Below, one piece after another: positions 29,236 to 64,000 of a stretch of 64,000 nucleotides of DNA. The DNA comes from Bacteroidales bacterium. GTDB taxonomy: Bacteria > Bacteroidota > Bacteroidia > Bacteroidales > WCHB1-69. The stretch covers positions 109,503 through 173,502 of the forward strand of contig JAFXTE010000080.1 of assembly GCA_017525245.1 (NCBI GenBank), read 5' to 3'. The notes under the pieces are model-generated. The model worked only from the letters and a program-made list of their open reading frames with translations, was not told where the DNA came from and made no database searches. The stretch's first letter is position 1. Every line of letters begins with the position of its first letter. The position numbers and the translations under genes are program-made.

Positions 29236-29475
29236 ATGACAAATTTAGAAAAGTTAAATGCGATTTTTTGCGAAGTGTTCGGTGTCGAAGCAGCTGCATT
29301 AGGCACGGAATTTGACAATAAGACTGTGGAAGGCTGGGACAGTGTGCGTCAGTTGAGCCTCACTTCGGCTGTGGAGGACACTTTTGACATCATGCTCGAT
29401 CCCGAGGACATCCTTGAGTTCACCTCATACGACAATGCCAAGGCTATCCTCAACAAATACGAAATCGAACTGTAA
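29236..29475 (+). CDS. acyl carrier protein 2
   Basis: A 79-residue ACP with the normal phosphopantetheine site S36 in EGWDSVRQLSL and the usual four-helix pattern. It overlaps the KAS III gene by one base (TAATG). With the ligase upstream and the condensing enzyme downstream it is the probable carrier of the extended acyl chain. Confidence 0.9.
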   Translation: MTNLEKLNAIFCEVFGVEAAALGTEFDNKTVEGWDSVRQLSLTSAVEDTFDIMLDPEDILEFTSYDNAKAILNKYEIEL

Positions 29476-31051: not shown

Positions 31052-31113
31052 TTGTGGCTTTTCTTTGCACAATCAAAAAATGTTTCATATCGATATTTAA
31101 ACAACAAATAATA

Positions 31114-45611: not shown

Positions 45612-45615
45612 TTCT

Positions 45616-48484: not shown

Positions 48485-49594
48485 ATGGATAAGAATACTA
48501 TTACTGTCACTTCGCCTCTTTTGCCCGACAGAGCGGAGTTCGAACTGATGCTCAAGGAAATTTGGGACAGTAAGTGGATCACCAACAACGGACAGTTCCA
48601 CAAACAGTTGGAAAAAGCGCTGTGCGAGTATCTCAAGGTGCCGTACATCAGCCTTTTCACCAACGGGACCTTGCCGTTGCTCACCGCTTTGCAGGCGTTG
48701 CGCATCACGGGCGAGGTCATCACCACGCCTTACAGTTTCGTGGCCACCACCCATTCCATTTGGTGGAACGGGTGCAAGCCGGTGTTCGTGGACATTGAGG
48801 AATCGACCTGCGGCATAGACCCCGACAAGATTGAGGCCGCCATCACTCCGCACACCACCGCCATCATGCCGGTGCATTGCTATGGCAAACCTTGCGACAT
48901 GGAACGCATCCAAGCCATTGCAGACAAGTATGGTCTGAGAGTGATTTACGATGCCGCTCATGCTTTCGGAGTGGAGGTGAACGGTAAGTCTGTTCTTGAG
49001 CAAGGGGATATGGCCACTTTAAGTTTTCATGCAACAAAAGTCTATAACACCCTTGAGGGCGGCGCGTTGGTGATTCACGACGAGCAGACGAAAAAGCGCA
49101 TTGACTTCTTGAAGAACTTCGGTTTCGCGGGCGAGACGGAGGTGGTGGCACCCGGCATCAACAGCAAGATGGATGAGGTGCGCGCCGCATACGGTCTGCT
49201 GAACCTCAGGCAGGTTGACGAGGCGATAGAAAAACGCCATCAGGTGGCAATCAAGTACCGTACGGCGTTGCGAAACGTGAAGGGTGTCCGTTTCTTCGAC
49301 GACATGCCCGGTGTGCGGCATAATTACAGCTATTTCCCCATCTTCATCAATGCGGAGGAATACGGCATGACCCGTGACGAACTCTATTTCAAGATGAAGG
49401 AGCAGGGTGTGCTTGGCAGACGCTACTTCTTCCCGCTAATCAGCACTTTCAGCACCTACCGCGGCTTGCCAAGTGCGGCTCCGGACAATTTGCCCGTGGC
49501 CACCAGAATCGCCAACGAGGTGATTTGCTTGCCGATGCACCATGTGTTAAGCGATGAGGAAGTGAACAGGATTTTGGACCTTATTGTGAGATAA
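48485..49594 (+). CDS. DegT-family dTDP-4-keto-6-deoxy-sugar aminotransferase (VioA/FdtB-like)
   Basis: A 369-residue sugar aminotransferase beginning ITVTSPLLPDRAEFELML, with SLFTNGTLPLLTALQAL (about 58), DAAHAFGVEVNG (about 158) and the PLP lysine K185 in SFHATKVYNTLEGGA. The SFHATKxxNTLEGG signature is that of enzymes acting on dTDP-4-keto-6-deoxyglucose or its 3-keto isomer (VioA, QdtB, FdtB). Since rmlA and rmlB lie in the same locus without rmlC/D or a keto-isomerase, dTDP-4-amino-4,6-dideoxyglucose (viosamine) is the simplest product. The next gene, 2 bp away, is an ATP-grasp ligase. Confidence 0.88.
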   Translation: MDKNTITVTSPLLPDRAEFELMLKEIWDSKWITNNGQFHKQLEKALCEYLKVPYISLFTNGTLPLLTALQALRITGEVITTPYSFVATTHSIWWNGCKPVFVDIEESTCGIDPDKIEAAITPHTTAIMPVHCYGKPCDMERIQAIADKYGLRVIYDAAHAFGVEVNGKSVLEQGDMATLSFHATKVYNTLEGGALVIHDEQTKKRIDFLKNFGFAGETEVVAPGINSKMDEVRAAYGLLNLRQVDEAIEKRHQVAIKYRTALRNVKGVRFFDDMPGVRHNYSYFPIFINAEEYGMTRDELYFKMKEQGVLGRRYFFPLISTFSTYRGLPSAAPDNLPVATRIANEVICLPMHHVLSDEEVNRILDLIVR

Positions 49595-49596: not shown

Positions 49597-50802
49597 ATGC
49601 AAAAGAAACTTATGCTTCTCGGCGGTATCCGCTATCTGCTGCCTGTTATCAAGGCGGCGCACGAGCAGGGGTATTATGTCATCACTGCCGACTATTTGCC
49701 CGGAAATATCGCCCACAAGTACAGCGATGAATATGTCAATGTGAGCATCATCGACAAAGAGGCTGTGCTGAAAGTGGCGCAGGAAAAGCGGATTGACGGC
49801 ATCATGTCGTTCGGGGTGGATCCCGGTGTGGTGAGCGCGGCCTATGTGGCCGAAAAGATGGGCCTCCCGTTCCAATGTTCATACGAGTCAGCGTGCATTC
49901 TTCAGGACAAATCGCGGTTCCGCCAGTTTTTGTCCGAACACGGCTTCAACTGTCCGAAAGCGAAAGGCTATGACAATGTGGAGGATGCGTTGCGAGATGC
50001 CGGTTATTTCACATGGCCCGTCATTGTGAAGCCTGTGGATTTGGCCGGATCCAAAGGTGTCACCAAGGTGGAGCGAAAAGAGGATTTGTCCGCGTCCATT
50101 GAGAATGCGTTGTCCTCCTCTTTCTCCAAAAGATTCATTGTCGAGGACTTCTTGGACATTGTCGGCTACCAGTCCAGCGCCGATGTGTTCGCGGTAAACG
50201 GAAAATTGGTTTTTCCGGCCTACTCTGACCAGTTGTTCGACAAAAAAGCCGCCAACCCTTATACACCCGCTATTGAAATCTGGCCGTCGTCGATGCCAGA
50301 GGATGCGCAAAAGGAGCTGTCGGACGAATTGCAGCGGCTTTTCACACTGCTTGGGATAAAAACAGGCATCTTTAACGTGGAGAGCCGAATCTGTTCCAAT
50401 GGGAAGGCGTATCTGATGGAGGTGTCTCCCCGGGGTGGCGGCAACCGAATTGCAGAGTTGCAGACGATGGCCACAGGACAGGATTTGGTCGGGAATGAGG
50501 TCAGACAGGCCATGGGAGTCCCAGTGGAAGGCATCGGCACCCCTGTTTATGATGGGGTGTGGTGCAATTACATTTTGCATTCAGATAAGGAAGGATTATT
50601 GAAATCCATCGATATTGAGCCCGAATTTAAGCATGATATCGTCAAAGATGAAGGGTACAGTGTGAAAAAAGGGGATAAGATAGTCCCATTCACAGGGGCG
50701 AACACCTCCCTCGGCACGTTGTTTTTGAGGACGGATACCCGAAAGGGAATGGATACCTTGCTGAACGATATTGACAAGTATGTGAAAATTGTCTTGGAAT
50801 GA
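49597..50802 (+). CDS. ATP-grasp carboxylate-amine ligase 7 (CarB/PurK-like)
   Basis: The N-terminal pre-ATP-grasp domain (LMLLGGIRYLLPVIKAAHEQ) and the ATP-grasp core (VIVKPVDLAGSKGVTKV at about residue 145, VEDFLDIVGYQSSADVF at about 182, FNVESRICSNGKAYLMEVSP with RGGGNRI at about 260-290) are well conserved. It differs from the six sugar-transfer-associated copies and resembles amino-acid ligases. Placed directly after a sugar aminotransferase gene and overlapping the next PLP-enzyme gene by 4 bp (ATGA), it could attach an amino acid or hydroxy acid to the amino sugar. Confidence 0.9.
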   Translation: MQKKLMLLGGIRYLLPVIKAAHEQGYYVITADYLPGNIAHKYSDEYVNVSIIDKEAVLKVAQEKRIDGIMSFGVDPGVVSAAYVAEKMGLPFQCSYESACILQDKSRFRQFLSEHGFNCPKAKGYDNVEDALRDAGYFTWPVIVKPVDLAGSKGVTKVERKEDLSASIENALSSSFSKRFIVEDFLDIVGYQSSADVFAVNGKLVFPAYSDQLFDKKAANPYTPAIEIWPSSMPEDAQKELSDELQRLFTLLGIKTGIFNVESRICSNGKAYLMEVSPRGGGNRIAELQTMATGQDLVGNEVRQAMGVPVEGIGTPVYDGVWCNYILHSDKEGLLKSIDIEPEFKHDIVKDEGYSVKKGDKIVPFTGANTSLGTLFLRTDTRKGMDTLLNDIDKYVKIVLE

Positions 50803-51764
50803 CCAACAAGGGGATAGGCGGCTATTTTGAACTGGAACTGTCCGACCGTGGCGGCTTCCTTCACGACGACGGAGTTTTGCTCAACAGTGGGCGAAACGCA
50901 TTGGAATACGCGCTTCGGGTACTGGGGGATGTGAAAAGCCTGCTCGTTCCTTACTACACATGCGATGTGGTCATGGAACCCATTGAAAAACTCGGCGTTC
51001 CGTACACATTCTATTCTATAAACCCCAAACTTGAAATAGAGGATTTACCCTCTCTGAAAAACGGAGAGTATCTGATATACACCAACTACTTCGGAATCAA
51101 GGACGAGTATGTCAGGAAATTGGCTGGCGATTACGGCTGCCAGTTGATCGTGGACAATGCGCAGGCGTGGTTCGCCGAACCGTTAGAGGGTGTCAATACC
51201 ATTTACAGCCCCAGAAAATATGTGGGAATACCCGACGGTGGTGTGGTGTATTGCCTGAAGCGGATGGACGAGAGCGTATTGGAACAGGATTTGTCGTATG
51301 ACCGTTGCTCCCATCTGCTGAAACGAATTGATTTGGGTTCGTCGGAAGGTTATGCTGACTTTAAGGCGAACAGCAGGCAGTTGGTGGGGCAGCCCGTTAA
51401 ACGGATGTCAAAACTGACCGGGCGGATGCTCTCTTCGATAGATTTTGAAGAGGTCAGAAGCATCAGGAGAGAAAATTTCGAATACCTTCACACGCATTTG
51501 AAGGAGAAGAATCTTTTTGAAGTGCCGCTGTTGGATTCGTTCGCGTGCCCGATGGTCTATCCTTATCTGACCGAGGACGCGACATTGAGACAAACGTTGA
51601 TTGAAAACAAGGTGTTTGTGGCGACCTATTGGCCGAATGTGAAAGAGTGGACAACTCCCGAAATGCTGGAAAATGTGTTGATGGACAGATTGCTTCCGAT
51701 ACCTGTTGACCAGCGGTACGGAGTAGGGGAGATGAAGGAAATAATAGATATTATCGTAAAATAA
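50799..51764 (+). CDS. PLP-dependent aminotransferase-fold protein, DegT-related
   Basis: A 321-residue protein of fold type I, distantly like DegT enzymes. LLNSGRNALEYALRVLG (about residue 27) forms the phosphate-binding turn, LIVDNAQAWFAE (about 116) carries the aspartate that contacts the PLP nitrogen and SPRKYVGIPDGG supplies the Schiff-base lysine K140. It is about 50 residues shorter than sugar aminotransferases. It may transaminate a keto acid or keto sugar. It is translationally coupled to the ATP-grasp gene before it and followed within 10 bp by another. Confidence 0.82.
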   Translation: MTNKGIGGYFELELSDRGGFLHDDGVLLNSGRNALEYALRVLGDVKSLLVPYYTCDVVMEPIEKLGVPYTFYSINPKLEIEDLPSLKNGEYLIYTNYFGIKDEYVRKLAGDYGCQLIVDNAQAWFAEPLEGVNTIYSPRKYVGIPDGGVVYCLKRMDESVLEQDLSYDRCSHLLKRIDLGSSEGYADFKANSRQLVGQPVKRMSKLTGRMLSSIDFEEVRSIRRENFEYLHTHLKEKNLFEVPLLDSFACPMVYPYLTEDATLRQTLIENKVFVATYWPNVKEWTTPEMLENVLMDRLLPIPVDQRYGVGEMKEIIDIIVK

Positions 51765-51773
51765 TTGTCTGAA

Positions 51774-53024
51774 ATGGATATAAAAGGGAAAAAACTGTTG
51801 ATTCTCGGGGCGAACGCCATCACATGTGAAATTGTGAATGCGGCAAAGGCGCTTGGTGTTTATACCATTGCCACCGATTACAATCCGGTGGAGAAAGCGC
51901 CGGCTAAATTGATTGCCGACGAGTATTGGAACGACAGCATCATGGATTATGATGTGCTGCTGCCCAAAATCAAGGAACACAAGGTTGATGGCATTCTGAC
52001 TGGTTTTATAGACATCGTGTTGCTGCCCTACCAGCATCTGTGCGAACTTGCGGGGCTGCCCTGTTACGCAACGAAGGAGGTCTTTGAGACCACTATGGAC
52101 AAGGCCAAGTTCAAGAAACTTTGCCGCGACAATGGCGTGACCGTGATTCCGGAATATGATTTGGACACCTTTGACCCCAATGTCATCAACGAAAAGAACA
52201 AGGTCATTATCAAGCCGGTTGACAACAGCGGTTCCCGAGGGGTGATTATCTGTGGCAAACCGGAGGATTTCAGCAAATGTCTTGATTATGCCATGTCTTT
52301 CTCGAAGAAGAAGCAAGTGGTGATAGAAAAGTATATGGAGTTGGACAGCGTTTCGGCCTCCTACAACATACAGGACGGTGTCATTAGCCTTTCCACGTTT
52401 AATGACCGGTATGTCCATAAATCCCCGGACGGCGGAGCGGTGACCTGCTTGAGCCTTTATCCCTCAAAATACCTTGATGATTACATGGAGAAGATGAATG
52501 AAAAGGTCTGTGCCATGTACAGGAATTTAGGGGTGAGGAACGGCCTCTTGTCCCTGCAGTTTTTTACAGATGGGAATGATTTTTATGTGATGGAGATGGG
52601 TCACAGGCTGACCGGTGGACAGCATTACATGATCAGCAAGGCGGAGAATGGGATCAGTTCATTGGACCAGCTGATTCATTTTGCGGTTACAGGAAAGATG
52701 GCAGACTTTTCCATTGCCGAAAAAGACAATGCACGGTTCAAAAATGTTTACTGCCATCTGTATATATTGGGTAAAGAGGCAAAGATAGCGCGGTTTGAAG
52801 GGTTGGATTATTTGAAAAACTTGCCAGAGGTGATTCATTTCTCCCAGATGAAAAGGGTGGGGGACACCATTGGCCCGGACGGAACTTCAGCGCAAAAGGT
52901 CGTCGGCCTGCATTTGAAGGTAAAAGACAGGGACGACTTGAACCGTATTCTGCGGGATATCCAGCAAAAGTTCCACTTTTATGACGAAGAAGGAAATGAT
53001 TTGAAACTAGAAGTGATAAAATAA
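51774..53024 (+). CDS. ATP-grasp carboxylate-amine ligase 8 (CarB/PurK-like)
   Basis: The ATG at 51774 gives MDIKGKKLLILGANAITCEI, a typical pre-ATP-grasp Rossmann-like start. The core contains VIIKPVDNSGSRGVIIC (about residue 142), VVIEKYMELDSVSASYNIQD (about 180) and FFTDGNDFYVMEMGHRLTGG (about 263) with the metal-binding Glu. It is 416 residues and only distantly similar to ligase 7. The pairing with a PLP enzyme gene directly upstream repeats the arrangement at 48485-50802, suggesting a second amine/acid pair. Confidence 0.9.
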   Translation: MDIKGKKLLILGANAITCEIVNAAKALGVYTIATDYNPVEKAPAKLIADEYWNDSIMDYDVLLPKIKEHKVDGILTGFIDIVLLPYQHLCELAGLPCYATKEVFETTMDKAKFKKLCRDNGVTVIPEYDLDTFDPNVINEKNKVIIKPVDNSGSRGVIICGKPEDFSKCLDYAMSFSKKKQVVIEKYMELDSVSASYNIQDGVISLSTFNDRYVHKSPDGGAVTCLSLYPSKYLDDYMEKMNEKVCAMYRNLGVRNGLLSLQFFTDGNDFYVMEMGHRLTGGQHYMISKAENGISSLDQLIHFAVTGKMADFSIAEKDNARFKNVYCHLYILGKEAKIARFEGLDYLKNLPEVIHFSQMKRVGDTIGPDGTSAQKVVGLHLKVKDRDDLNRILRDIQQKFHFYDEEGNDLKLEVIK

Positions 53025-53035: not shown

Positions 53036-53932
53036 ATGAAATATTACACAATGAAAGAAACCCGTGAGTTTCTTGAAAGTATCGGTATGCCTGGCGGCGA
53101 CCTTTACGATTTGCCTACATCTGAAAAACGCTTCCCCGACGGTGGCCAGTACCGTTTTGAGGTTCCGGGCATCCAAGGCCCTGGCCCGATGAAGGCCTTG
53201 TTGGAGGCTCTTGACGAATATGGGATACAGATCCATCGCGTCACCCAGACCAAGGGCATCATGTTCCTCACAGACGAGGAAATTTCCAAAATGGTCGAAT
53301 ACGCGAAGAAGTGGAAGGTGCAGCTTGTTTTAGCCTGCGGACCGCGTGCCACGACCGACACGTCCGCTTCCGTGAAGACGGAGGAGGGGCAGCGTATGGG
53401 CTACCGTCTGCGTGGACAAGAGCAGATTGTCCGAGGCATTGAGGAAATCCGTCGTGGCGCCCGCTTGGGTGTGCGCGGATTCCTGATTTATGACGAGGGT
53501 CTGCTGTGGGCTCTCAGCGAAGCCCGTAAGAAAGGCTACATTCCCGCCGACTGCCACTTTAAGGTGAGTGCCCACTCGGGTCATGGCAACCCGTGCTCTG
53601 CTCATGTGTTGGAGACTTTGGGCGCCGATTCCATCAACCCGATTCGCGATATTCAGATACAGATGCTGGCCGCCATGCGCGCTGCCATCGATGTGCCGAT
53701 TGATTTGCACACGGAGAACCCCAAATCCAGCGGTGGCTTTATCCGTCACTACGAGGTGCCGGACTTCATCCGCGTGGCCGCTCCCGTTTACCTTAAGACC
53801 GGCGGCTCAGTGGCTGCAAACCACAGCTATGACACCACTGAGAAAGAGGCCAGACAACGCGCCAAGCAGATTGCTTTGGTAAAACGGGTGATTGACACCT
53901 ATTATCCGGAGGCGGTGGTTTCGCCGAAGTAA
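53036..53932 (+). CDS. TIM-barrel-like protein, peptidase U32-related
   Basis: A 298-residue cytoplasmic protein. I recognise it only as a relative of proteins often labelled U32 family peptidase: ESIGMPGGDLYDLPTSEKRF near the N terminus, GIMFLTDEEI (about 79), GARLGVRGFLIYDEGLLWAL (about 140), HSGHGNPCSAHVLETLGADS (about 180), IDLHTENPKSSGGFIRHYEV (about 222) and APVYLKTGG. The alternation of strands and helices suggests a beta/alpha barrel, so an aldolase- or lyase-like reaction is as likely as peptidase activity. It starts 11 bp after ligase 8 and is the first gene of the organic-acid group. Confidence 0.72.
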   Translation: MKYYTMKETREFLESIGMPGGDLYDLPTSEKRFPDGGQYRFEVPGIQGPGPMKALLEALDEYGIQIHRVTQTKGIMFLTDEEISKMVEYAKKWKVQLVLACGPRATTDTSASVKTEEGQRMGYRLRGQEQIVRGIEEIRRGARLGVRGFLIYDEGLLWALSEARKKGYIPADCHFKVSAHSGHGNPCSAHVLETLGADSINPIRDIQIQMLAAMRAAIDVPIDLHTENPKSSGGFIRHYEVPDFIRVAAPVYLKTGGSVAANHSYDTTEKEARQRAKQIALVKRVIDTYYPEAVVSPK

Positions 53933-53936
53933 GTAT

Positions 53937-53967
53937 AATTGATAATTGATAATTGATAATTGATAAT
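53937..53967. repeat. heptamer tandem repeat, unit AATTGAT
   Basis: Four perfect heptamers and a partial fifth lie between the stop codon of the U32-like gene and the ATG at 53974, where they replace any ribosome binding site. Confidence 0.95.
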
Positions 53968-53973
53968 AGGTTA

Positions 53974-55110
53974 ATGCGACATCATCAATATAATCCGTCA
54001 TATAAGTTTGTTAAGGAACCAATTGACTTTAACAAATACACAGATCGCAGCTTGTTGCAGTATTGTTTGGGTGCCACGATGTATATGCCGGGCACCAAGG
54101 ATTTTGCGCAGGCCATCATCGACAAGAAATATCCTGGCCTCACCTCCATGGTGATGTGCTTTGAGGATGCTTGCAAGGAAGAAGATGTGCCTGCTGCCGA
54201 GCAAAACTGCATCCGCGTGTTGGAAACATTGCGCGAAAAAGTAGAAAAAAAGGAGTTGGCCTATGAGGATATCCCGCTCATCTTTTTCCGAGTGCGCAAT
54301 GTGGAACAGTTCAAGCACTTTGTGAAACTGCTGCCCATTGAAACGGTTCCGTATATCACAGGCTTCAATTTCCCGAAGTTTAACAGCTTGAACGCGGCAG
54401 CCTATATGGACCACTTGGTTGATATCAACGAGCGGGCCGGAGAGGTGCTGTATGGCATGCCTATCATTGAGGATGCCCGTGTGGCCTTCAAGGAGAGCCG
54501 TTTGGACGAACTGATTGCCATAAAACGGGTGCTTGACCAAAACAAGGAATTGGTGCTGAACGTACGCGTGGGCGGAACAGACTTCTCCAGCTGCTTCGGC
54601 GTGCGGCGCGGCATCAACTACACCATTTACGAAATCATGACCGTGTCGAACTGCCTGATGGACATTCTGAATGTCTTCACCCGCAACAATGACTACACGG
54701 TGAGCGGTCCCGTTTGGGAATACTTCCGTGTGAACAAGCGGATGAAAGGCATGGCCGAACTGCCGAAGGTTGACCTCCAGCAGACCTTGATGAAACGCAA
54801 GGCTATCGTCAATGATGCCGTTGACGGGCTGATGCGCGAGCTGGTGCTCGACCAGGCCAACGGCTTTATGGGAAAGACCTGCATTCACCCTTCGCACTTG
54901 AACTACATTAACGGCATGTTGGCCGTGACGAAAGATGAGTATGATGACGCTTATCAGATTATGCATACCTCAGGCGGTGTCATCAAAGGCACCAAAGGCA
55001 TGAACGAGATCGGGCCGCACAAAAACTGGGCGGAGAAGATTATGATGCGCGCACAGGCATACGGTGTGATTGAGAATGACGCAAGCTACATTGAATTATT
55101 TGGAGAATAA
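53974..55110 (+). CDS. HpcH/HpaI-citrate lyase superfamily C-C bond lyase
   Basis: The protein (378 residues from the ATG at 53974) resembles the C-C_Bond_Lyase branch of the citrate-lyase-beta/HpcH TIM barrels. Visible are LGATMYMPGTKDFAQAIIDK, MVMCFEDACKEEDVPAAEQN (about 56), LIFFRVRNVEQF (about 100), MPIIEDARVAFK (about 168), VLNVRVGGTDFSSCFGVRRG (about 197) and FMGKTCIHPSHL (about 302). The Glu-Asp pairs and Arg fit metal and substrate binding. Members split or form carbon-carbon bonds next to a carboxylate. Related genes occur in tellurite-type operons, but no ter genes are here. Confidence 0.87.
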   Translation: MRHHQYNPSYKFVKEPIDFNKYTDRSLLQYCLGATMYMPGTKDFAQAIIDKKYPGLTSMVMCFEDACKEEDVPAAEQNCIRVLETLREKVEKKELAYEDIPLIFFRVRNVEQFKHFVKLLPIETVPYITGFNFPKFNSLNAAAYMDHLVDINERAGEVLYGMPIIEDARVAFKESRLDELIAIKRVLDQNKELVLNVRVGGTDFSSCFGVRRGINYTIYEIMTVSNCLMDILNVFTRNNDYTVSGPVWEYFRVNKRMKGMAELPKVDLQQTLMKRKAIVNDAVDGLMRELVLDQANGFMGKTCIHPSHLNYINGMLAVTKDEYDDAYQIMHTSGGVIKGTKGMNEIGPHKNWAEKIMMRAQAYGVIENDASYIELFGE

Positions 55111-56120
55111 TGGCAACAACAAAACAGTATAATTACTGCCTTGATTTTCTGAAGGGTATAGCATGTATGTTCGTGGTGTTCATGCATTGCGAATTTCCTG
55201 GCCTTACGGGTACCGCTGTGCAGGCGATCAGTCGTTTCTGTGTTCCGTTCTTCTTTATGGTTTCAGGCTATTTCTGCTTCAAACCATTAGAAGATTTGGA
55301 AAGAGAAGGATACGAATCCTTGAAGATCAAAAAAAAGGTAGCACATATTGGGAAAATAACCCTGTGGGCATCGTTGTTCTATCTCGCATTCGTCCTGCTT
55401 CTGCAGTTGTTGTTCCACAATCAAAACTTAACAATAACATGGAATGATGTTGTAAATTGGATTGTATTCAATGTTCCCAAAGTGGTGGCTGGACAATATT
55501 GGTTCTTGTTCGCTCTTTTGTATGCCTATATTTTATATGGAATATTGGAACGCTTGCATCTTCGCCGTTTTTCATACATTCTTGCGGCGGTGATGTTTGT
55601 CGTTTACATCTTGATGGCCCAGGGGTTGCATCTTGCAGGTGTCGAGATACCGAATTGCTATTACCGCAACTGGCTGATTGAGGCATTCCCGTTTTTTATG
55701 TTGGGTCATTGGATTCATGGTAACCAAGAAAAGATTAATGTTTCAAACAAGGCTTTGATTTGGATTATTGTCTTGACTACATTGTTATGCTGGTTGGAAC
55801 GCTATTTGTTGGGACGCGATTTCGGAGTCAATATCTGCACATTTCCACAGGTGTTCGCTCTCTTCGTTTATGGGGTGAAGAACCCTATGCGACATGAAGG
55901 TGTTCTTCAAAGGCTGGGCCGCGACTGTTCGATGTTAGTTTACATTTTCCATCCGGCGGTATGGCATTCATTAGACGGTGTTTACTATTTAGGAGGGATC
56001 TCCGACAATATGTTTGCCTTATACATGAAACCTATTTTGGTCTTGGCTTTATCCATACTTATGTCTTTGGCCTTTAATTATTTGATGGCATTCGTCCAAA
56101 CAAAGAAACAAAAAGCATGA
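55110..56120 (+). CDS. acyltransferase 3 family membrane protein
   Basis: A 336-residue integral membrane protein with about ten helices. The N-terminal LDFLKGIACMFVVFMHCEFP contains the conserved histidine of the Acyl_transf_3/OafB family (H22), and VSGYFCFK follows at about residue 48. Such enzymes move acetyl, succinyl or other acyl groups across the inner membrane onto glycans. Its place between the lyase and the hydratase genes, with start and stop overlaps on both sides (TAATG and ATGA), suggests it may transfer a group made by those enzymes. Confidence 0.88.
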   Translation: MATTKQYNYCLDFLKGIACMFVVFMHCEFPGLTGTAVQAISRFCVPFFFMVSGYFCFKPLEDLEREGYESLKIKKKVAHIGKITLWASLFYLAFVLLLQLLFHNQNLTITWNDVVNWIVFNVPKVVAGQYWFLFALLYAYILYGILERLHLRRFSYILAAVMFVVYILMAQGLHLAGVEIPNCYYRNWLIEAFPFFMLGHWIHGNQEKINVSNKALIWIIVLTTLLCWLERYLLGRDFGVNICTFPQVFALFVYGVKNPMRHEGVLQRLGRDCSMLVYIFHPAVWHSLDGVYYLGGISDNMFALYMKPILVLALSILMSLAFNYLMAFVQTKKQKA

Positions 56121-56623
56121 TAGAACTTACCACACCATTAAGCGATGACGCCATCCGCCAGCTGAAAGTCGGCGACGTGGTGTCTATAACAGGCTATATT
56201 TTCTGTGGCCGAGACGCTGTTTTGCCCCGGATTTGCAAAGAACTGGAGGCAGGAACCTGGGACAGCAGAGGCATAGACTTGAGAGGTGGGGTGATTTTCC
56301 ATACCGCAGTAAGTCCTGCCGGCGTGGGTCCCACCTCAAGCAATAAATTGGAGATTGAGGGCAGCTTTGAGACGCTGTCGAATCATGGCGTGAAGATGCA
56401 CCTCGGCAAGGGCGCCATCAAACCCGAGACGGTGAAGGCGTTGGAGGAAAACAACGCCGTTTTCGCCATCATCCCTCCGGTGACGGCACTGTTGGAGAGC
56501 CAAACGCTGGAAAGGGAGTGCGTGGCTTGGCCGGAACTCGGCATGGAAGCGCTGTACAGAATCAAGGTTGAGAATTACCAGGCGATTATTGCCGCCGCGA
56601 AAGGAGAATCCATCTATGAATAG
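56117..56623 (+). CDS. class I fumarase/tartrate dehydratase-like beta subunit
   Basis: A 168-residue protein matching the Fumerase_C domain: LKVGDVVSITGYIFCGRDAV (about residue 15), GVIFHTAVSP (about 58), the substrate-binding GPTSSNKLE (about 71) and GVKMHLGKGAI (about 91). It resembles TtdB-type subunits of two-component hydro-lyases. With the alpha subunit encoded next it should add or remove water from a dicarboxylic acid such as fumarate, tartrate or a methylated analogue. It overlaps both neighbours. Confidence 0.9.
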   Translation: MIELTTPLSDDAIRQLKVGDVVSITGYIFCGRDAVLPRICKELEAGTWDSRGIDLRGGVIFHTAVSPAGVGPTSSNKLEIEGSFETLSNHGVKMHLGKGAIKPETVKALEENNAVFAIIPPVTALLESQTLERECVAWPELGMEALYRIKVENYQAIIAAAKGESIYE

Positions 56624-57461
56624 TATCGTTGACAAAGTCGCGGATTGCCTTGTCCGTGCCGGCTCCACCTTCCGCGAAGACCAGAAGGAAGCCTACCGCA
56701 AGGCGATTGCCGATGAACCCAACAACCAAAGCTGCTGGGTGATGCAGCAGGTGCTTGACAATGCACTTGTCGCGGAAAAAAACAGAAGCCCCTTGTGTGA
56801 CGACACGGGCATCCCGCATCTGTTCCTTGAGGCGGGGCCGAACCGCAATGTCACAGGGGAATTGTTGGAACAGATAAAAGAAGGTGTTGCGCAGGGGTTG
56901 CGCAAACTCCCCGGTCGTCCTATGGCTATCAAGGGCGATGACTACGCCCGCATAGACCAGAGCGGCGGACTGGACGAGGACAGCGGAGCCTTGGCCCCGT
57001 CCCCGATATTGATAAAGCCGGTAAAGGAAGATGTGCTGCGCCTCACCGTGCTGATGTTGGGCGGCGGTCCCGCCATCCGTGGCATCACACAGCGTGTGTT
57101 CCACAAACACAGCGTGGATGTGGTGATTGACGAAATCGTCAGCCGCGCTAAAGAAGGTGTTTCCAAGCTCGGATGCAGCCCGTGTGTGTTAGTCGTCGGC
57201 ATCGGTCGTTCGCAGTTCGAGGCTACCAGCTTGATGATGGAGGCGATGGTGTATGGCGACTTCGGCAAACAGACCGAATTCGAGAAAAAAATCACCGAAA
57301 AGGTGAACGAGGCCAATGTCGGTCCGCTCGGACTGGGTGGCAAGCACAGCGTGTTGGCGACTTTCGCCAAGGTGGGTCCCCAACGGGCAAGCGGTGTCCG
57401 TATTGTGGCGTTGAGGCCTTGCTGCTGTTTTGAACCGAGACGCGCATCTGTAGAATTGTAA
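56616..57461 (+). CDS. class I fumarase/tartrate dehydratase-like alpha subunit (4Fe-4S)
   Basis: From the ATG at 56616, preceded by AAGGAG at 56600-56605, an unusually strong Shine-Dalgarno for this phylum, the protein has 281 residues. Iron-sulfur cysteines are expected at C61 (SPLCDDTGIPH), C190 (GCSPCVLVVGIG) and C269-C271 (RPCCCFEPRR), the positions conserved in Fumerase/TtdA proteins. The order beta then alpha is the reverse of the single-chain fumarase. TCA-cycle fumarase is possible, but the operon context argues for a dedicated hydratase. Confidence 0.9.
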   Translation: MNSIVDKVADCLVRAGSTFREDQKEAYRKAIADEPNNQSCWVMQQVLDNALVAEKNRSPLCDDTGIPHLFLEAGPNRNVTGELLEQIKEGVAQGLRKLPGRPMAIKGDDYARIDQSGGLDEDSGALAPSPILIKPVKEDVLRLTVLMLGGGPAIRGITQRVFHKHSVDVVIDEIVSRAKEGVSKLGCSPCVLVVGIGRSQFEATSLMMEAMVYGDFGKQTEFEKKITEKVNEANVGPLGLGGKHSVLATFAKVGPQRASGVRIVALRPCCCFEPRRASVEL

Positions 57462-57464
57462 ACT

Positions 57465-58436
57465 ATGCCAAAGATATTACATACCGCAAGATATACAGGG
57501 CTGCCTTTGGAAATCCTCCAAAGCGCCTGCCCGGAAGGCTTTTCCGTCAAGACGTTGGACGAGGCCGCTCACGAACAGCTTGTGAAAGAGGCGGTTGACG
57601 CGGACTATTTCTTGGTCAGCGGACGCCTGTCGATAGACAAGGCCGTGTTGGACAATGCCCCGCACCTGAAGATGATTCAGCGGACGGGTGTGGGCACCGA
57701 AATGTTGGACACGGAAGAAATCAAGAAACGTGGCATTCCCGTCTATGTCAATGCCGGCGTGAATGCCAGAAGTGTGGCGGAGCATACGATGACGCTCTTG
57801 TTAGCCTGCCTGAAACGGCTGCCGCAAGTCAACAAGCAGACCCACGAAGGGGTTTGGAAAAAACAGCAGACCGGCGTGACCACCCGCGAATTGTACGGCA
57901 AAACGGTCGGGCTGGTCGGTATGGGGCATATTGGTCGTTTGGTCGCCTCCATGCTCCAACCTTTCGGGGCGAAAGTGATTTACACGGATGTGATAAGGCA
58001 AACCGATGAGGTTGAAAAGAACCTGTCGTTGACCTATTGCAGCTCATTCCAAGAATTGCTGCCGCAAGTGGATATATTAAGTTTCCATTGTCCGCTGACG
58101 AAGGAGAACACCGACATGCTGAACCAAAAGACCCTTGCCTTGATGAAACAAGGTGCTATGGTCGTCAATACCGCCCGGGGCAAACTTATCAACCCGGGCG
58201 ATTTGTATGACGCGTTGAAGTCCGGCCAGGTCCGGGCAGCGGCGTTGGACACGCACTACGAGGAACCGCTCAAAGAGGACTATAAGTTGGCCGAATTGGA
58301 GAACGTGATTCTTACGCCACACATCGGCGGTCTGTCATACGAGGCTTTTGAGTCCATGATGGCGGGTGCGATGGAAAACATCGTGGCATTTGAGCAAGGG
58401 AAACTATCGGAGATAGAAGGGAAGAGGTTGTTGTGA
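57465..58436 (+). CDS. D-isomer-specific 2-hydroxyacid dehydrogenase
   Basis: A 323-residue NAD-dependent enzyme with the substrate-binding arginine region IQRTGVGTEM (about residue 70), Rossmann motif VGLVGMGHIGRLV (about 146), VVNTARGKLINPGDL (about 225) and the catalytic histidine in LTPHIGGLS (about 282). The family interconverts 2-keto acids and D-2-hydroxy acids (phosphoglycerate, glyoxylate, lactate, formate relatives); the substrate cannot be read from sequence. It begins 3 bp after the hydratase and overlaps prpD-like by one base. Confidence 0.92.
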   Translation: MPKILHTARYTGLPLEILQSACPEGFSVKTLDEAAHEQLVKEAVDADYFLVSGRLSIDKAVLDNAPHLKMIQRTGVGTEMLDTEEIKKRGIPVYVNAGVNARSVAEHTMTLLLACLKRLPQVNKQTHEGVWKKQQTGVTTRELYGKTVGLVGMGHIGRLVASMLQPFGAKVIYTDVIRQTDEVEKNLSLTYCSSFQELLPQVDILSFHCPLTKENTDMLNQKTLALMKQGAMVVNTARGKLINPGDLYDALKSGQVRAAALDTHYEEPLKEDYKLAELENVILTPHIGGLSYEAFESMMAGAMENIVAFEQGKLSEIEGKRLL

Positions 58437-59746
58437 TGAAACAGAATCTGACAGAGAGTTTTATTGACGGCCTTGTTGCCAAAGCGCAAGCAATACCCGA
58501 GCGGGTGATCCGGCAGGCAAAGAAGTGTCTGTTGGACTATTCGGGCGTGGCGGTCGGCGGGGCCAAGTATTTGCAGGAGCGGCATCCGGCCTTTTTTGAG
58601 GCTTTCACGAAAGAGGCAGGGGAGTGTTCCGTGTTTGGCACGGCATACAAGACCACAGCCGCAAATGCCGCCTTACTGAACGGCTTCAGTGCGCATGTGT
58701 TAGAGTTGGACGACGGTCACCGCAAGGGGATGATCCATCTTGGGGCATCCGTCGTTTCCGCGGTTCTTGCGGTTGCGGAGAAAGAGAAATTGGCGTTTGA
58801 AGCGGTTCTGCGGGGCGCGGTTATGGGTTACGAGGCCGCTGTGCGCTGTGCCTGCGCGTTGCAGCCAGGGCACAAGGTGCGCGGCTACCACGTGTCGGGA
58901 ACGTGCGGCACTATCGGTTCGGCAGTGGGCATTGCGTTCGCCTGCGGTTACACGAAGGAGCAGATGAGGTCCACCTTGGCGTGTGCGGTGACCAGCGCGG
59001 CCGGGGTGTTGGAGATACAGGAAGAGGCTTCCGAGCTGAAGCCCTACAACTTGGGTCGCGCCGCCATGGACGGCCTGATGGCTGCCCTGACCGGGCGTTT
59101 GGCGTTGCCGGGTCCCGATGACATCTTGGGCGGCAAACGCGGCTTCCTCGCCGTACTGACGGATACGCCGGTTCCAACCCATCTGACTGATTTTCAGAAT
59201 GAAGACTATTGCATTGAAGGCATCTATCAGAAAATGTATGCTGCCTGCCGCCACTGCCATCCGGCCATTGAGGCAGCCATCGCCATCCGCGATGACCACA
59301 ACATGGAGCCTGATGAGGTGGATAGGGTAGAGGTGCGTACCTACAAGTTAGCGGTCGGGGGGCACAACCACACGGACATACAGGGCATCAGTTCTGCCAA
59401 GTTGAGTACGCCCTTCAGTGTGGCGTTGGCCATGGTGAAGGGGGATGCCGGATTTGAGGATTTCAATGCAGACAACCTCAGGGATCCCGACATCATCGGC
59501 CTGACACGCAAAGTCAGCGTCATGGAGGACGAGCAATTGACGGCCCAGTCTCCGGCCGTGCGCGGGGCGCGGGTGATTGTGCGGCTGAAGAACGGCGAGG
59601 AGTATGCGAAGGAGGTTCTCTATCCGAAAGGCGAGCCGGAGAATCCGATATCGATTGAAGAGATTAGATTGAAGGCCGCTTCTTTATTGCGCGGATGCAA
59701 CGGAGGGGAGATATTCAGGTCGGTGTGGCCATCGGCTGAGATATGA
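58436..59746 (+). CDS. MmgE/PrpD-family dehydratase or decarboxylase
   Basis: The last gene of the locus. The 436-residue product shows MmgE/PrpD features: CLLDYSGVAVGGAKYL (about residue 27), NAALLNGFSAHVLELDDGHR (about 73) with the catalytic Asp/His region, AVMGYEAAVRCACAL (about 125), HVSGTCGTIGSAVGIA (about 150) and HCHPAIEAAIAI (about 279). Known members are 2-methylcitrate dehydratase, cis-aconitate decarboxylase and iminodisuccinate epimerase, all acting on tri- or dicarboxylic acids. I chose the ATG at 58436; a GTG sits directly before it. Confidence 0.9.
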   Translation: MKQNLTESFIDGLVAKAQAIPERVIRQAKKCLLDYSGVAVGGAKYLQERHPAFFEAFTKEAGECSVFGTAYKTTAANAALLNGFSAHVLELDDGHRKGMIHLGASVVSAVLAVAEKEKLAFEAVLRGAVMGYEAAVRCACALQPGHKVRGYHVSGTCGTIGSAVGIAFACGYTKEQMRSTLACAVTSAAGVLEIQEEASELKPYNLGRAAMDGLMAALTGRLALPGPDDILGGKRGFLAVLTDTPVPTHLTDFQNEDYCIEGIYQKMYAACRHCHPAIEAAIAIRDDHNMEPDEVDRVEVRTYKLAVGGHNHTDIQGISSAKLSTPFSVALAMVKGDAGFEDFNADNLRDPDIIGLTRKVSVMEDEQLTAQSPAVRGARVIVRLKNGEEYAKEVLYPKGEPENPISIEEIRLKAASLLRGCNGGEIFRSVWPSAEI

Positions 59747-59903: not shown

Positions 59904-62900
59904 ATGAAAAAATTCTTATTGTTTTTGATGTTTGCGCTGTTCTGCATCCCATGGGCGGCGAACGCGCAAGAAGAACTGACCGTGTATGATGGAACGAATA
60001 CCAATAGTTATGTTCCATTCTATGGTTTGTATGCAGACACACAAGGAGCTGCTTCCGAATGTGTTTTCCCAAGCGATGAATTGGATGCTATGACAGGCGG
60101 CCAAATCACCGCAATAAAGTTTTACATTACATCATCTGCAGCTGCGGCCTGGACTGGTACTCACCAAGTGTATGTTGGTGAAGTTGATGCAACAACCCTG
60201 ACGGGAATCACGGGACCCAGTGCGTTCACTGTAGTCAAAACAGCTTCTTTCGATGCAACAGGAACCGAATTGACTATCACATTTGATGAACCCTACACCT
60301 ATGGTGGTGGTAACCTGCTGATTGGCACATACGTCAGTGTGGCAGGCAATTGGAAATCGTGTTCTTTCGCTGGTGTAAACCAAACCGAAAACACGGGATG
60401 GTATAGAACTAGTGCAACTGCCTCAGGCAATGCTGTTAAGTTCCTCCCCAAGACCACTTTCACCTACACTCCTGGCAGTGGCCCGGTTTGTGATAAACCT
60501 GAAACCTTAGTTGCTGAAAACATCGCCAGCGATGGTGCCACATTGACTTGGACTGGCGGTAGTGGTGTTTACAACATCGAGCTCAATGGTACCGTCATTG
60601 AAGAAAACTATGCAGGCTACACTTACAATCTGGCCGACCTCACCCCTACTATGAACTACACGGTGAGACTGCAGAGTGTGTGCGACGAAGCCACCAGCAG
60701 TTGGAAAACCGTGAGCTTCACCACACCGTGCGCTACTTACGACATTCCTTACACCTACGACTTTGAGGAAGAAGCCCCGTTTGCCTGCTGGACACCCATC
60801 ACAGGCGTGACTCGTGGAAACAGCTCTTCTAACGCTCACAATAGCACCTACTACTTGAGATTCGCAGGCACCACCTCCAATCTTGTGGCTTTGCCGCAAT
60901 TCAACGAGCCCACCAACAACCTCCGTGTGGAGTTCTGGACCCGCCCCGAAAGCAACACCAATTCCAGCTGCGGCACATTCTCCGTAGGTTATATGACCGA
61001 TATTACCGATCCCAGCACCTTCGTTGAAGTGGCTAATTATGCTTACAACGACTGGACCAGTGCCACATACGTCAAGAAAGCGGTTGACTTCATCAACGTA
61101 CCCGCCAACGCCAACATCGCTTTCCGTCATAATGCAGGAAGTTCCTCTTGGTATTGGTATGCTGACGATGTCACCGTGAAGGAAATTCCGAGCTGTTTGG
61201 CTCCTACGGCTCTTGCCGCCACCGCCACCACCAACTCAGCCGAACTGAGCTGGACGGCCAACAGTGGCGAAACCGCTTGGACGGTTTATTACAAAAAGAC
61301 CTCCGATGAGAACTACTCCGAAGTGACCAACGCCACCAATCCCTATACGCTGAACGGATTGGATGCATCCAGCAACTATCAGTATTATGTGGTGGCCAAC
61401 TGCTCCGCCGACGATGCCAGCGAGGCCTCCGATGTGTTCACCTTCGCCACCGAGTGCGAAGCCATCTCCTCCTATCCGTGGACGGAGAATTTCGATTCCT
61501 ACACGGGTGTGACAGTTGGCACCACCAACAATCTGCCTGTCTGCTGGAACTATATCAATACTTGTACATATAGCTATTACAAAGGCTATCCGGTCATTTA
61601 CAACGCATCTGGCTTTTCCAACTCCGGCAACAACCACCTGAGATTCTATACCTATTATTCGTCATACTCTTCCTACGATCCGCAGGATCAATACGCTATC
61701 CTGCCTGAGATGGAAGGTTTGAACGGCAAGATGCTTACCCTTTATGCGAGAGGTGGTACCAACAGCTCGTTCAAGGTAGGTATGATGACCGATCCGACGG
61801 ATGTTTCCACGTTCGTGGAGATTGGAACGACTACCCCGGCTACATCCTACGGGGAGTACACTTACATGCTTGAAGGCGAAGGCAACTATGTGGCCATCAT
61901 GGTTGAAGCGGCTAACTCTTCGGTTACCACCCGTACGGTCTATATCGATGACATTACTATTGCTGAGCCTCCTACCTGCATCAAACCCACAGGCCTGACC
62001 TACAGAAATGTTTACGGTCACGGAGCCACCCTCAGCTGGCTCTTGAACGACGAGACCCAAACCGCTTGGGACGTGCAAGTTTCCGACACTACTGATTTCA
62101 GCCGTATCGTTGCACTTGTTGAAAACGTTGATAACCACGAGAACTATGTGCTGGGCGGTCTCGATCCCGAGACACATTATTATGTGCGTGTCCGTGGCAA
62201 CTGCGGCGGTGGAGACGTGAGTGAGTGGAGTAACACTGTCAACTTCACCACCACGGTGGCCTGTCCTGCTCCCACTGGATTTGCAGCCAGCGAAATCTCT
62301 GGCTACACTGCCAAACTGAACTGGACCGGTAACAGCGAAAACTACACTGTCAGCTATAGAACAGCCGCTACTGCGATTGGCTTCTTTGAAGCATTCAACG
62401 CCAGTGGTATTCCAACTGGCTGGACACAATACAGCGGTTTGGTGGACGGAGTGCTGGACGGCACCGCCGAATTGACATCAGGATCCAACTGGACAACCAC
62501 CACTTATGGTTTGGGCGCTTATAACGCAAAACTCAACATCTACGGAACCTCACGCAAGAATTGGCTTGTGACTCCTGAAGTCACCCTTGAAAATGACTAC
62601 AACTTGGACTTCGACCTCGCCTTGACCGACTATGGCAACTCGGTTCCCATTGAAGACCCCACTGCCCAAGCCGATGACAGATTCGTTGTTTTGGTTTATG
62701 CCGATGAAGCATGGACCATCCTGCGCGAGTGGAACAACAGCGGTTCTGAATATGTCTATAACACCATCGCCACCACGGGCGAACATGTCAGCATCGATCT
62801 TTCGAATTACGTTGGCAAGACCGTGAAGATTGCCTTCTACGGTGAATCCACCGCAGAAGGCGGTGACAACGACATGCACATCGACAATGTGATCGTCGGT

Positions 62901-64000
62901 ATTCCTGTTGCCGCTGGCGAATGGCAGACCGTCACCGTTGACGAAGCTCCTGTCACCCTTACCGACCTCACTCCCGAGACCACTTACGAAGCCAAGGTGC
63001 AAGGCAACTGCGGCGACGACGGTTTGAGCCTTGAGACCAACGTCATCACCTTCACCACCCTTGAAGCTTGCCCGACACCTACTGGTCTGGCCGTTGTTGA
63101 CAGCTTGTTGACGGCAACCACCGCTGGCCTCAGCTGGAACGGTTTTGCTGATGTGGATAGCTACACGGTGCAATACAGAATAGCTGCCCATGAAGAAGCT
63201 CCGTTCATGCAGAACTTCGAAAGCGAAACTTCGTTAAACGGCTGGACCTTCATTGGTGATGATGTCAATGGCATTGACGGTACAGGAACTAATCCTGCTG
63301 GACTTTATTCAACTGCTGCGCACAGTGGCTCGAATGGCTTTAGATTCTCCTCTTACACCAGTTCAGAAGATTACAACCAATATCTGATTTCTCCCGAGCT
63401 GACCGTAACTGGCGAACTCAAGTTCTGGTATAAAATGTATGGCACTGGTGATGAATTAAATTTCGGTTATTCCACAACTACTGACGATGTAGAGTCCTTC
63501 ACTTGGCTTGAACTTACCAATACAACAAGTTGGCAGGAATACACGCAAGTACTTTCAGCCGACGTGAAGTACATCGCCATCCACTACTATGGAGACTACA
63601 AATTCTATGGCTATGTTGACGACATCACCATCGGTGCCCAAGAAATTCCCGCTGGCGAATGGCAAACTGCAAGCAGCGCTACCACCAACGTCACGCTGAC
63701 GGACCTCACTCCTGAGACTCCTTACGAAGCCCAAGTGAAGAGCGATTGCTCCGATCCTGAAGAATGGAGCAACATGGTTACCTTCACGACTCTTGAGCAG
63801 ACGGATCTTCCTCAGACTATAGCTTTGGTCACTGGTACGAACTGGGTGTCATTCAATGAGGAAATCACTCTGGACGACCTGAAGGCCGCCTTGGTTGCAG
63901 CAGCTCCTGGCACCGCCATCAAGATCTACAGTCAGAGCAATTCCACCACATACAACCCCGCAAGAAACCTTTGGTTAGGAAGTTTGACATGGGATGTGGC
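59904..64000 (+). CDS. large secreted fibronectin III/choice-of-anchor-J protein, 3' truncated by the window
   Basis: The frame is open for 1365 codons from the ATG at 59904 to the end of the window. A signal peptide (FLLFLMFALFCIPWAANAQ) begins it. Fibronectin type III modules recur (for example around residues 195-275, 430-515, 690-780), alternating with choice-of-anchor-J/cleaved-adhesin jelly-roll domains marked by segments such as YVDDITIG, YIDDITI and IDNVIVG preceded by a Glu/Asp-Phe start (NFESETSLNGWTF). Proteins of this design are exported through type IX secretion; the sorting domain would lie beyond the window. It is likely an adhesin or protease-associated surface protein. Confidence 0.9.
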   Translation, partial: MKKFLLFLMFALFCIPWAANAQEELTVYDGTNTNSYVPFYGLYADTQGAASECVFPSDELDAMTGGQITAIKFYITSSAAAAWTGTHQVYVGEVDATTLTGITGPSAFTVVKTASFDATGTELTITFDEPYTYGGGNLLIGTYVSVAGNWKSCSFAGVNQTENTGWYRTSATASGNAVKFLPKTTFTYTPGSGPVCDKPETLVAENIASDGATLTWTGGSGVYNIELNGTVIEENYAGYTYNLADLTPTMNYTVRLQSVCDEATSSWKTVSFTTPCATYDIPYTYDFEEEAPFACWTPITGVTRGNSSSNAHNSTYYLRFAGTTSNLVALPQFNEPTNNLRVEFWTRPESNTNSSCGTFSVGYMTDITDPSTFVEVANYAYNDWTSATYVKKAVDFINVPANANIAFRHNAGSSSWYWYADDVTVKEIPSCLAPTALAATATTNSAELSWTANSGETAWTVYYKKTSDENYSEVTNATNPYTLNGLDASSNYQYYVVANCSADDASEASDVFTFATECEAISSYPWTENFDSYTGVTVGTTNNLPVCWNYINTCTYSYYKGYPVIYNASGFSNSGNNHLRFYTYYSSYSSYDPQDQYAILPEMEGLNGKMLTLYARGGTNSSFKVGMMTDPTDVSTFVEIGTTTPATSYGEYTYMLEGEGNYVAIMVEAANSSVTTRTVYIDDITIAEPPTCIKPTGLTYRNVYGHGATLSWLLNDETQTAWDVQVSDTTDFSRIVALVENVDNHENYVLGGLDPETHYYVRVRGNCGGGDVSEWSNTVNFTTTVACPAPTGFAASEISGYTAKLNWTGNSENYTVSYRTAATAIGFFEAFNASGIPTGWTQYSGLVDGVLDGTAELTSGSNWTTTTYGLGAYNAKLNIYGTSRKNWLVTPEVTLENDYNLDFDLALTDYGNSVPIEDPTAQADDRFVVLVYADEAWTILREWNNSGSEYVYNTIATTGEHVSIDLSNYVGKTVKIAFYGESTAEGGDNDMHIDNVIVGIPVAAGEWQTVTVDEAPVTLTDLTPETTYEAKVQGNCGDDGLSLETNVITFTTLEACPTPTGLAVVDSLLTATTAGLSWNGFADVDSYTVQYRIAAHEEAPFMQNFESETSLNGWTFIGDDVNGIDGTGTNPAGLYSTAAHSGSNGFRFSSYTSSEDYNQYLISPELTVTGELKFWYKMYGTGDELNFGYSTTTDDVESFTWLELTNTTSWQEYTQVLSADVKYIAIHYYGDYKFYGYVDDITIGAQEIPAGEWQTASSATTNVTLTDLTPETPYEAQVKSDCSDPEEWSNMVTFTTLEQTDLPQTIALVTGTNWVSFNEEITLDDLKAALVAAAPGTAIKIYSQSNSTTYNPARNLWLGSLTWDV

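Follow-up and report, generated by a model that had tools for sequence, protein, structure and literature searches.

Why should a run of genes for small-molecule acid chemistry be built into what looks like a capsule locus? The question is raised by a 64,000-nucleotide stretch of Bacteroidales DNA (hereafter the window, which is the last 64 kb of contig JAFXTE010000080.1), in which seven genes encode, in order, a U32-like barrel protein, a carbon–carbon (C–C) bond lyase of family PF15617, a membrane acyltransferase, the two subunits (TtdB and TtdA) of an Fe–S hydratase, a D-2-hydroxyacid dehydrogenase and a PrpD-family enzyme. The original prediction, made from the sequence alone, took these for an organic-acid operon serving the capsule. 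The gene content and tight coupling that it described are real: all seven reading frames are open and on the forward strand between positions 53036 and 59746, and adjacent genes overlap or are 3 bp apart, the sole exception being 41 bp between the U32-like and lyase genes. (The lyase starts at the methionine codon at 53974, used by most of its relatives, the listed TTG at 53953 being a mechanical extension.) As to what the genes do, we put a probability of roughly 0.6 on the reading that they are the type A form of a modular pathway, spread by horizontal transfer, whose product is a small polycarboxylic acid (hydroxylated or unsaturated) destined for a surface glycan.

Distribution and modular make-up of the cassette

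An alignment of the U32-like protein was scanned against one genome from each of 84,980 species, and the best 80 of the 369 relatives found were taken as loci (given L numbers below). The loci were read by tblastn with a fixed gene panel, as maps based on open reading frames (ORFs) lost the U32-like ORF in 14 of the 80. By record title, 47 belong to Bacteroidota, 31 to Bacillota and one to Spirochaetota, with one unassigned, some titles being doubtful (most of the records are metagenome-assembled genomes, MAGs). A locus that does not come from a MAG is L042, titled Prevotella sp. khp7. Alongside the U32-like gene, the PF15617 lyase was found in 76 loci, PrpD in 67, TtdB in 63 and TtdA in 60, with all of them in 55; these are lower bounds, because several of the loci are short. 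The lyase match starts no more than 300 bp after the U32-like match in 57 of the 76, and 383 of the 384 cassette-gene matches share the strand of the U32-like gene, so the grouping is not due to chance. The co-occurrence search suggested with the original prediction has in this way revealed a co-inherited unit (U32-like, PF15617 lyase, TtdA/TtdB and PrpD) across the 80 loci, and the seven genes of the window are one version, type A, of this conserved cassette. No description of it was found among literature titles, a source that largely leaves out subscription journals.

The U32-like protein is 67–96% identical to 23 relatives, and its gene has a patchy distribution: it was found in 3 of 395 genomes sampled from the phylum and 2 of 198 from the order (the window's own genome being included in both), and in 2 of 295, including the query's own, in a random sample of one Clostridia order, which is too few for a comparison of glycan with transporter settings. 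From this patchiness, and from the 75–96% identity across titled phyla, we infer that the cassette has spread horizontally.

The end of the cassette is exchangeable. Three tails are found, nearly exclusive of one another: a D-2-hydroxyacid dehydrogenase, a phosphonopyruvate-decarboxylase-like protein with an aldo-keto reductase, and an Ldh2-family protein. The dehydrogenase is the only tail in 24 of the 80 loci (type A, as in the window), and the decarboxylase with aldo-keto reductase in 42; an aldo-keto reductase alone (2), an Ldh2-family protein alone (3) or no tail at all (7) are minor cases, and mixed tails occur once as dehydrogenase plus Ldh2 (L076) and once as both main tails (L057). 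The arrangement in L057 is of a dehydrogenase–PrpD pair followed, past DegT2, RmlA and RmlB genes, by a full decarboxylase-tail cassette; L076 has two U32-like matches.

Does the nature of the tails give a clue to the substrate? The two decarboxylases tested (406 and 383 bits) exceed the cut-off of 312.5 for phosphonopyruvate decarboxylase (TIGR03297), and the one Ldh2 protein tested has L-sulfolactate dehydrogenase as its best model (290 bits, under the cut-off of 500). The substrates of both tail families are 3-substituted pyruvates, an indication that the tails have one kind of 2-oxoacid in common. The same matches would suit a phosphonate or sulfonate pathway, in which the tails act on phosphonopyruvate or sulfopyruvate themselves, but phosphonopyruvate usually comes from phosphoenolpyruvate (PEP) mutase, and only 3 of the 16 decarboxylase-tail genomes (of unstated completeness, the window's own being outside this set) have this enzyme over its cut-off. 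PEP mutase was rejected on this ground as the source of the decarboxylase substrate in most genomes; usually the substrate would come from elsewhere, plausibly from the cassette. Sulfonate routes were not searched for, but a route of either kind would not need TtdAB, PrpD or a CitE-type lyase, and we regard such a pathway as very improbable.

Trees of the U32-like, lyase, PrpD and TtdA proteins were made from 50 rows (the window and 49 of the 80 loci) having all four genes, a tail type and no in-frame stop, tails being labelled by hand (L057, which carries both tails, as type B; L076 untyped). The fewest tail changes were 2 on the lyase tree, 3 on the PrpD tree, 10 on the U32-like tree and 11 on the TtdA tree, against means of 15.5–15.6 and minima of 10–12 with shuffled labels; these are quick trees of related rows, and that of PrpD has long branches that meet. 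With all usable rows, 18 changes were counted for the U32-like protein (80 rows) and 2 for the lyase (72 rows). The pattern means that the lyase and PrpD are inherited together with the tail, whereas the U32-like protein and TtdA serve any tail, and we read the cassette as consisting of a shared part (U32-like, TtdA) and a swappable part (lyase, PrpD and tail).

Families and conserved residues of the cassette enzymes

Six of the seven operon labels are backed by Pfam (Table 1). The PF15617 match of the lyase spans positions 2–320 of the 320 in the profile, and the lyase is also weakly similar (E about 0.01) to the C-terminal part of CitE/malyl-CoA lyase. The PF05681 and PF05683 matches of TtdA and TtdB are over their cut-offs, placing the pair in the class I fumarase/TtdAB superfamily; TtdA also exceeds the cut-off of TIGR00722 (110 against 100.65 bits), and TtdB, the small subunit, is under that of TIGR00723 (82 against 145.15 bits). 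The nearest solved relatives of PrpD are IDS-epimerase and cis-aconitate decarboxylases (IRG1). The predicted active-site residues are kept: five cysteines of TtdA are conserved in 60 of 60 sequences, R238, E267 and H286 of the dehydrogenase in 26 of 26, and the His and Lys of PrpD in 36 or 37 of 37.

Could these enzymes simply form a known pathway for the use of tartrate or methylcitrate, as the original prediction had allowed they might? No cassette gene is above the corresponding equivalog cut-offs: against the L-tartrate dehydratase models, the alpha subunit scores 61.4 bits (cut-off 365) and the beta subunit 75.6 (cut-off 264), and against three methylcitrate models PrpD scores 38.4, 34.6 and 26.3 bits (cut-offs 575, 950 and 458). 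Judged by such scores, no known pathway fits the cassette at equivalog level.

At E 0.001 the U32-like protein matches nothing in Pfam or NCBIfam, and up to E 1 it does not match the Pfam U32 model PF01136. A profile of 44 U32-like sequences, however, aligns with one of 20 PF01136 members over 90 columns (hhalign probability 92.7, P 4e-7; five other pairings gave 5.2 or less), and two distant relatives bear the NCBI name 'U32 family peptidase'; on these two grounds the label 'U32-like' is defensible. What survives of the predicted U32-like barrel is a remote homology between profiles, not a direct family match. A beta-keto acid cleavage enzyme was considered as a relative and discarded (a weak match at E 0.14, with a profile–profile probability of only 5.2), and no relative was found by sequence among solved structures in the PDB. 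None of the columns conserved in at least 95% of the 44 sequences is a cysteine, C187 being invariant in the 24 nearer sequences; Arg, Lys, Asp, Glu and Gly are numerous among the conserved residues, which would fit an enzyme for anionic substrates. Two further copies deserve mention. One, in a MAG (L054, 10001–10894), has one internal stop codon. The other, on the Enterobacter chuandaensis plasmid pE20191216 (L182), is 34% identical; together with genes for an oxidoreductase, an aminotransferase, iron-containing redox enzymes, a nucleotidyltransferase and an MFS transporter it forms a same-strand run that resembles a small natural-product cluster.

Glycan context of the cassette

Is the capsule setting seen in the window typical? 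ATP-grasp genes (counted if of LAL type within 8 kb, or of ATPgrasp_ST type anywhere) occur in 52 of the 64 loci of at least 14 kb, genes of the polysaccharide panel likewise in 52, and one or the other kind in 57, so the predicted link to polysaccharide loci has mostly held; the panel was drawn from the window, and other glycan genes will therefore have been missed. Indeed, among the seven loci lacking both, flippase genes were found in L081 and L087, and an ATP-grasp gene just past 8 kb in L086; no glycan-type gene was seen in L068, L074, L076 and L091. (A pool of 71 out of 94 unassigned ORFs, drawn from 15 of the 19 loci that lack panel genes, served only for counts of Pfam families.)

In the window, the cassette follows DegT2 and ATP-grasp genes at gaps of 11 bp or less, and the arrangement upstream of it is the same in a relative of the same genus (G013). 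One of these ligases, ATPg1, is of the same family as a LAL-type ligase found between the U32-like and lyase genes in some relatives. The best model for DegT2 is dTDP-4-dehydro-6-deoxyglucose aminotransferase (DesI; 295 bits, cut-off 650), and since RmlA and RmlB are also encoded in the window, DegT2 probably makes an amino sugar. Of the 64 long loci, 24 contain a DegT2-like gene and 40 do not; an ATP-grasp gene lies within 8 kb in 23 of the former and in 24 of the latter (Fisher P 0.001, relatedness ignored). In a whole-genome survey of 26 distinct genomes (28 entries, G020 being identical to G470 and G013 to G473), a DegT2-like protein was found at E 1e-80 in 17, the nearest such gene lying within 10 kb of the U32-like gene in 11, at about 13 kb in one, and only on another contig in five. 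Two genomes of another class of the same phylum (G171 and G182) have DegT2, U32-like, lyase, PrpD and ATP-grasp genes together.

A pyridoxal phosphate (PLP) enzyme encoded just upstream had been predicted to transaminate the keto acid. The protein in question (starting at 50799) has no Pfam match, yet it is DegT-like by profile (probability 97.5 and 95.9 with DegT families, 0.2 or less with two unrelated families), so its identification stands. It might then be argued that the cassette makes a non-proteinogenic amino acid, with a DegT-like protein (48485 or 50799) transaminating the keto acid and ATP-grasp enzymes building a peptide-like capsule component; the 50799 gene is flanked on both sides by ATP-grasp genes, here as in several other loci, and ATP-grasp genes are abundant in the window. 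But DegT2 (the 48485 gene) resembles sugar aminotransferases, RmlA and RmlB genes are beside it in several loci, and the 50799 protein occurs in only 12 of the 80 loci. We think an amino acid product distinctly unlikely, and the predicted transamination step needs correction: the linked DegT2 looks like a dTDP-sugar aminotransferase, so that transamination would probably yield an amino sugar. The acyltransferase, which had been taken to imply that the product ends up on a glycan, is present in only 14 of the 80 loci; it is therefore no pointer to the product's destination, and was rejected as the key to glycan attachment, the ATP-grasp ligase being the better link. Its own activity is probably an O-acetylation.

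Table 1. Features of the window discussed in the text
Feature	Position	Strand	Remarks
RmlA, glucose-1-phosphate thymidylyltransferase	20942–21862	+	Over model cut-off
RmlB, dTDP-glucose 4,6-dehydratase	21895–23031	+	Over model cut-off
DegT2, probable dTDP-4-keto-6-deoxyglucose 4-aminotransferase	48485–49594	+	Best model DesI
ATP-grasp ligase ATPg1	49597–50802	+	Pfam
DegT-like PLP-fold protein	50799–51764	+	No Pfam match; between two ATP-grasp genes; 12/80 loci
ATP-grasp ligase ATPg3	51765–53024	+	Pfam; 11 bp upstream of U32-like gene
U32-like TIM-barrel enzyme, 298 aa	53036–53932	+	Most conserved cassette member; barrel suggested by U32 relationship
PF15617 C–C bond lyase/CitE superfamily, 378 aa	53974–55110	+	Pfam PF15617 1e-113; tail-specific
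Membrane acyltransferase, PF01757	55110–56120	+	Pfam 3e-30; optional accessory
TtdB-like/class I fumarase C-terminal subunit	56117–56623	+	PF05683 5e-22
TtdA-like/class I fumarase Fe–S subunit	56616–57461	+	ATG start; PF05681 3e-48
D-2-hydroxyacid dehydrogenase (type A tail)	57465–58436	+	PF02826 2e-60
MmgE/PrpD-family enzyme, tail-specific	58433–59746	+	PF03972 7e-49 plus PF19305 3e-37

Other parts of the window also merit attention. Six ATPgrasp_ST genes (at 35849, 36962, 39229, 40312, 42653 and 43788) between 35849 and 44939, with PGA_cap genes at 34674 and 38093, make a dense ligase set for one glycan locus. A second possible acyl-building group (25303–30530) comprises a hexapeptide-repeat protein, two SDRs, an AMP-binding enzyme and a KASIII-like enzyme, and a protein with an alanine dehydrogenase N-terminal domain (31003–32322) is encoded directly upstream of the Wzx-like flippase gene. 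A predicted right-handed beta-helix protein (45553–47049) lies within the glycan locus, and right after the cassette comes a gene (59904–63998) for a large protein with a signal-like N-terminus, of which 1365 aa can be read, the frame being still open at the contig end.

Catabolic relatives, the proposed pathway and known systems

Are there settings in which the cassette would degrade an acid? Seven of the 80 loci (L073, L074, L081, L086, L090, L091 and L092) have a transporter gene, DctM in six and a CitMHS citrate transporter in one. All seven are Clostridia by title and have the decarboxylase tail, and four (L073, L074, L086 and L090) also have a LysR-type gene. An ATP-grasp gene lies within 8 kb in none of the seven but in 53 of the other 73 loci (Fisher P 0.0003, again ignoring relatedness). 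More distant U32-like relatives were found in 32 of 398 genomes in the phylum to which G462 belongs (G462, titled Ruminococcus, carries L057 and is itself counted). Among 20 of their neighbourhoods (gene families being called by BLAST against Pfam-identified members), 15 have at least one of TRAP (9), malic enzyme (6), PanB-like (7) and ELFV dehydrogenase (4) genes, and one has IlvD. L115, one of the 20, is a cassette copy; in L116–L119 the U32-like gene is followed by TtdAB (22–24% and 33–35% identical to those of the window) and malic enzyme, with Ldh2 in three of the four, and L123 has E1 subunits of a 2-oxoacid dehydrogenase. It would appear from these neighbourhoods that the wider U32-like family works in 2-oxo- and hydroxyacid metabolism. 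Given the transporter loci and these catabolic-looking relatives, the same reactions may be degradative in places, the seven Clostridia-titled loci perhaps being catabolic; and the capsule cassette may have arisen when a catabolic module was put to synthetic use, a descent suggested by the pairing of the U32-like protein with TtdAB and Ldh2 in both kinds of setting.

A more radical possibility is that the operon of the window is itself a catabolic unit captured in a glycan locus, a polycarboxylic acid being degraded by methylcitrate-like logic (dehydrate, rehydrate, cleave, then oxidise or decarboxylate) and the capsule setting being incidental. The transporter loci, with their LysR-type genes and lack of nearby ATP-grasp genes, and the 15 of 20 distant neighbourhoods (with IlvD in one) would be as expected, and to that extent the cassette does occur away from polysaccharide loci, which goes part of the way towards an outcome that the original prediction had named as refuting it. 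But polysaccharide or ATP-grasp genes accompany it in 57 of the 64 long loci; even three of the seven transporter loci have a glycan-type gene farther out (a flippase in L081, RmlB in L092 and, about 9 kb upstream in L086, an ATP-grasp gene truncated where the locus ends); and the window operon has no transporter and is tucked in behind the DegT2 and ATP-grasp genes, with the same upstream order in G013. We consider this explanation unlikely.

Several points nevertheless weigh against a glycan acid pathway. Besides the absence of nearby ATP-grasp genes from the transporter loci, the catabolic look of the distant neighbourhoods and the possibility of degradation in places, the 80 loci are the closest of 369, are not independent and come mostly from MAGs; no TtdAB was seen next to the U32-like genes in G171 and G182; a DegT2-like protein is absent at E 1e-80 from 9 of the 26 genomes surveyed, so the acceptor would not always be dTDP-4-amino-4,6-dideoxyglucose; like tails are still grouped to some degree on the U32-like and TtdA trees (10 and 11 changes, the shuffled minima being 11 and 10); a characterised relative was not found for the U32-like enzyme; and the substrate, product and direction of every step are proposals from sequence.

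How, then, might an acid for a surface glycan be made? The TtdAB hydratase and the U32-like barrel would supply the shared intermediate, a C4-type dicarboxylate or oxoacid; the lyase would form (or, in reverse, break) a C–C bond; and PrpD, with TtdAB, would move a hydroxyl group by dehydration followed by rehydration. The tail would then act on a 3-substituted 2-oxoacid and set the final oxidation state, interconverting 2-oxoacid and D-2-hydroxyacid in the window, or 2-oxoacid and L-2-hydroxyacid with the Ldh2 tail, or decarboxylating and then reducing the 2-oxoacid with the decarboxylase/aldo-keto reductase tail. An ATP-grasp ligase would join the acid to an amino sugar by an amide bond, the acceptor being most simply dTDP-4-amino-4,6-dideoxyglucose supplied by RmlA, RmlB and DegT2, and glycosyltransfer and Wzx export would follow. 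Amide attachment to this particular sugar is the least certain step and is put forward tentatively, as the simplest choice in view of the linkage of DegT2 with ATP-grasp genes, the DesI best model and the scores of RmlA and RmlB over their cut-offs.

A fuller version of this scheme, which must be called speculative, would be an undescribed modular pathway for building carbon chains. Its common intermediate would come from a class I fumarase and a barrel of the U32 superfamily that has no obvious cofactor site; an exchangeable block (PF15617 lyase, PrpD and one of three tails) would make different acids from it, and ATP-grasp ligases would attach these to capsule amino sugars, the transporter versions in Clostridia importing and degrading the same or a related acid. 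The main reading can be put more simply: the cassette, which recurs in gut bacteria, mostly in surface-sugar clusters, appears to build an unusual small organic acid and probably decorates the outer coat with it. If so, gut and rumen bacteria share a plug-in kit that varies coat chemistry with acids made on the spot, the U32-like barrel family and PF15617 lyases outside Ter loci acquire a biosynthetic role, and unusual coat acids could be traced genetically by the presence of the cassette; three related products, one for each tail, would be predicted and could be searched for by NMR.

Where would such a pathway stand among known systems? It would belong, as a new version, among the enzyme-built acid decorations of bacterial glycans. 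Close to it among these are the N-acylated derivatives of dTDP-4-amino-4,6-dideoxyglucose in O-antigens and capsules, with which the window shares RmlA, RmlB and a DesI-like aminotransferase; it differs in having a dedicated cassette to make the acid, and attachment would probably be by ATP-grasp ligase and not by a transferase dependent on CoA or formyl donors. The methylcitrate cycle (PrpC–PrpD–AcnB–PrpB) and leucine-type chain elongation offer a likeness in the combination of a PrpD-family protein, an Fe–S hydratase, a C–C lyase or condensing enzyme and a hydroxyacid dehydrogenase, and the shared logic would be one of condensation, isomerisation and oxidation; the cassette departs from the methylcitrate cycle in its class I fumarase-type hydratase, its PF15617 lyase and a PrpD below the equivalog cut-offs. 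A PF15617-type lyase is also part of the Ter-associated set of C–C lyase, ATP-grasp and phosphoribosyltransferase genes on tellurium-resistance plasmids. Relatives of the window's lyase on annotated plasmids include Ter-region lyases, and it shares 31% identity with a Salmonella plasmid copy that has ATP-grasp nearby and 46% with a Brevibacillus plasmid copy; the Ter partners (phosphoribosyltransferase, StiP and the TerD family), in contrast, were not seen among the 30 window proteins scanned with Pfam (the rest being unscanned). With the phosphonopyruvate decarboxylase (aminoethylphosphonate) pathway the resemblance lies in the second tail type, whereas the window has a dehydrogenase tail, and PEP mutase is usually missing where the decarboxylase tail is present. 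Members of the U32 family, finally, include TrhP, RlhA and UbiU/UbiV, and conserved Fe–S cysteines are a feature of the family; the U32-like protein resembles the family in its profile alignment and in the naming of two distant relatives, and is set apart by its lack of a Pfam match and of any family-wide conserved cysteine.

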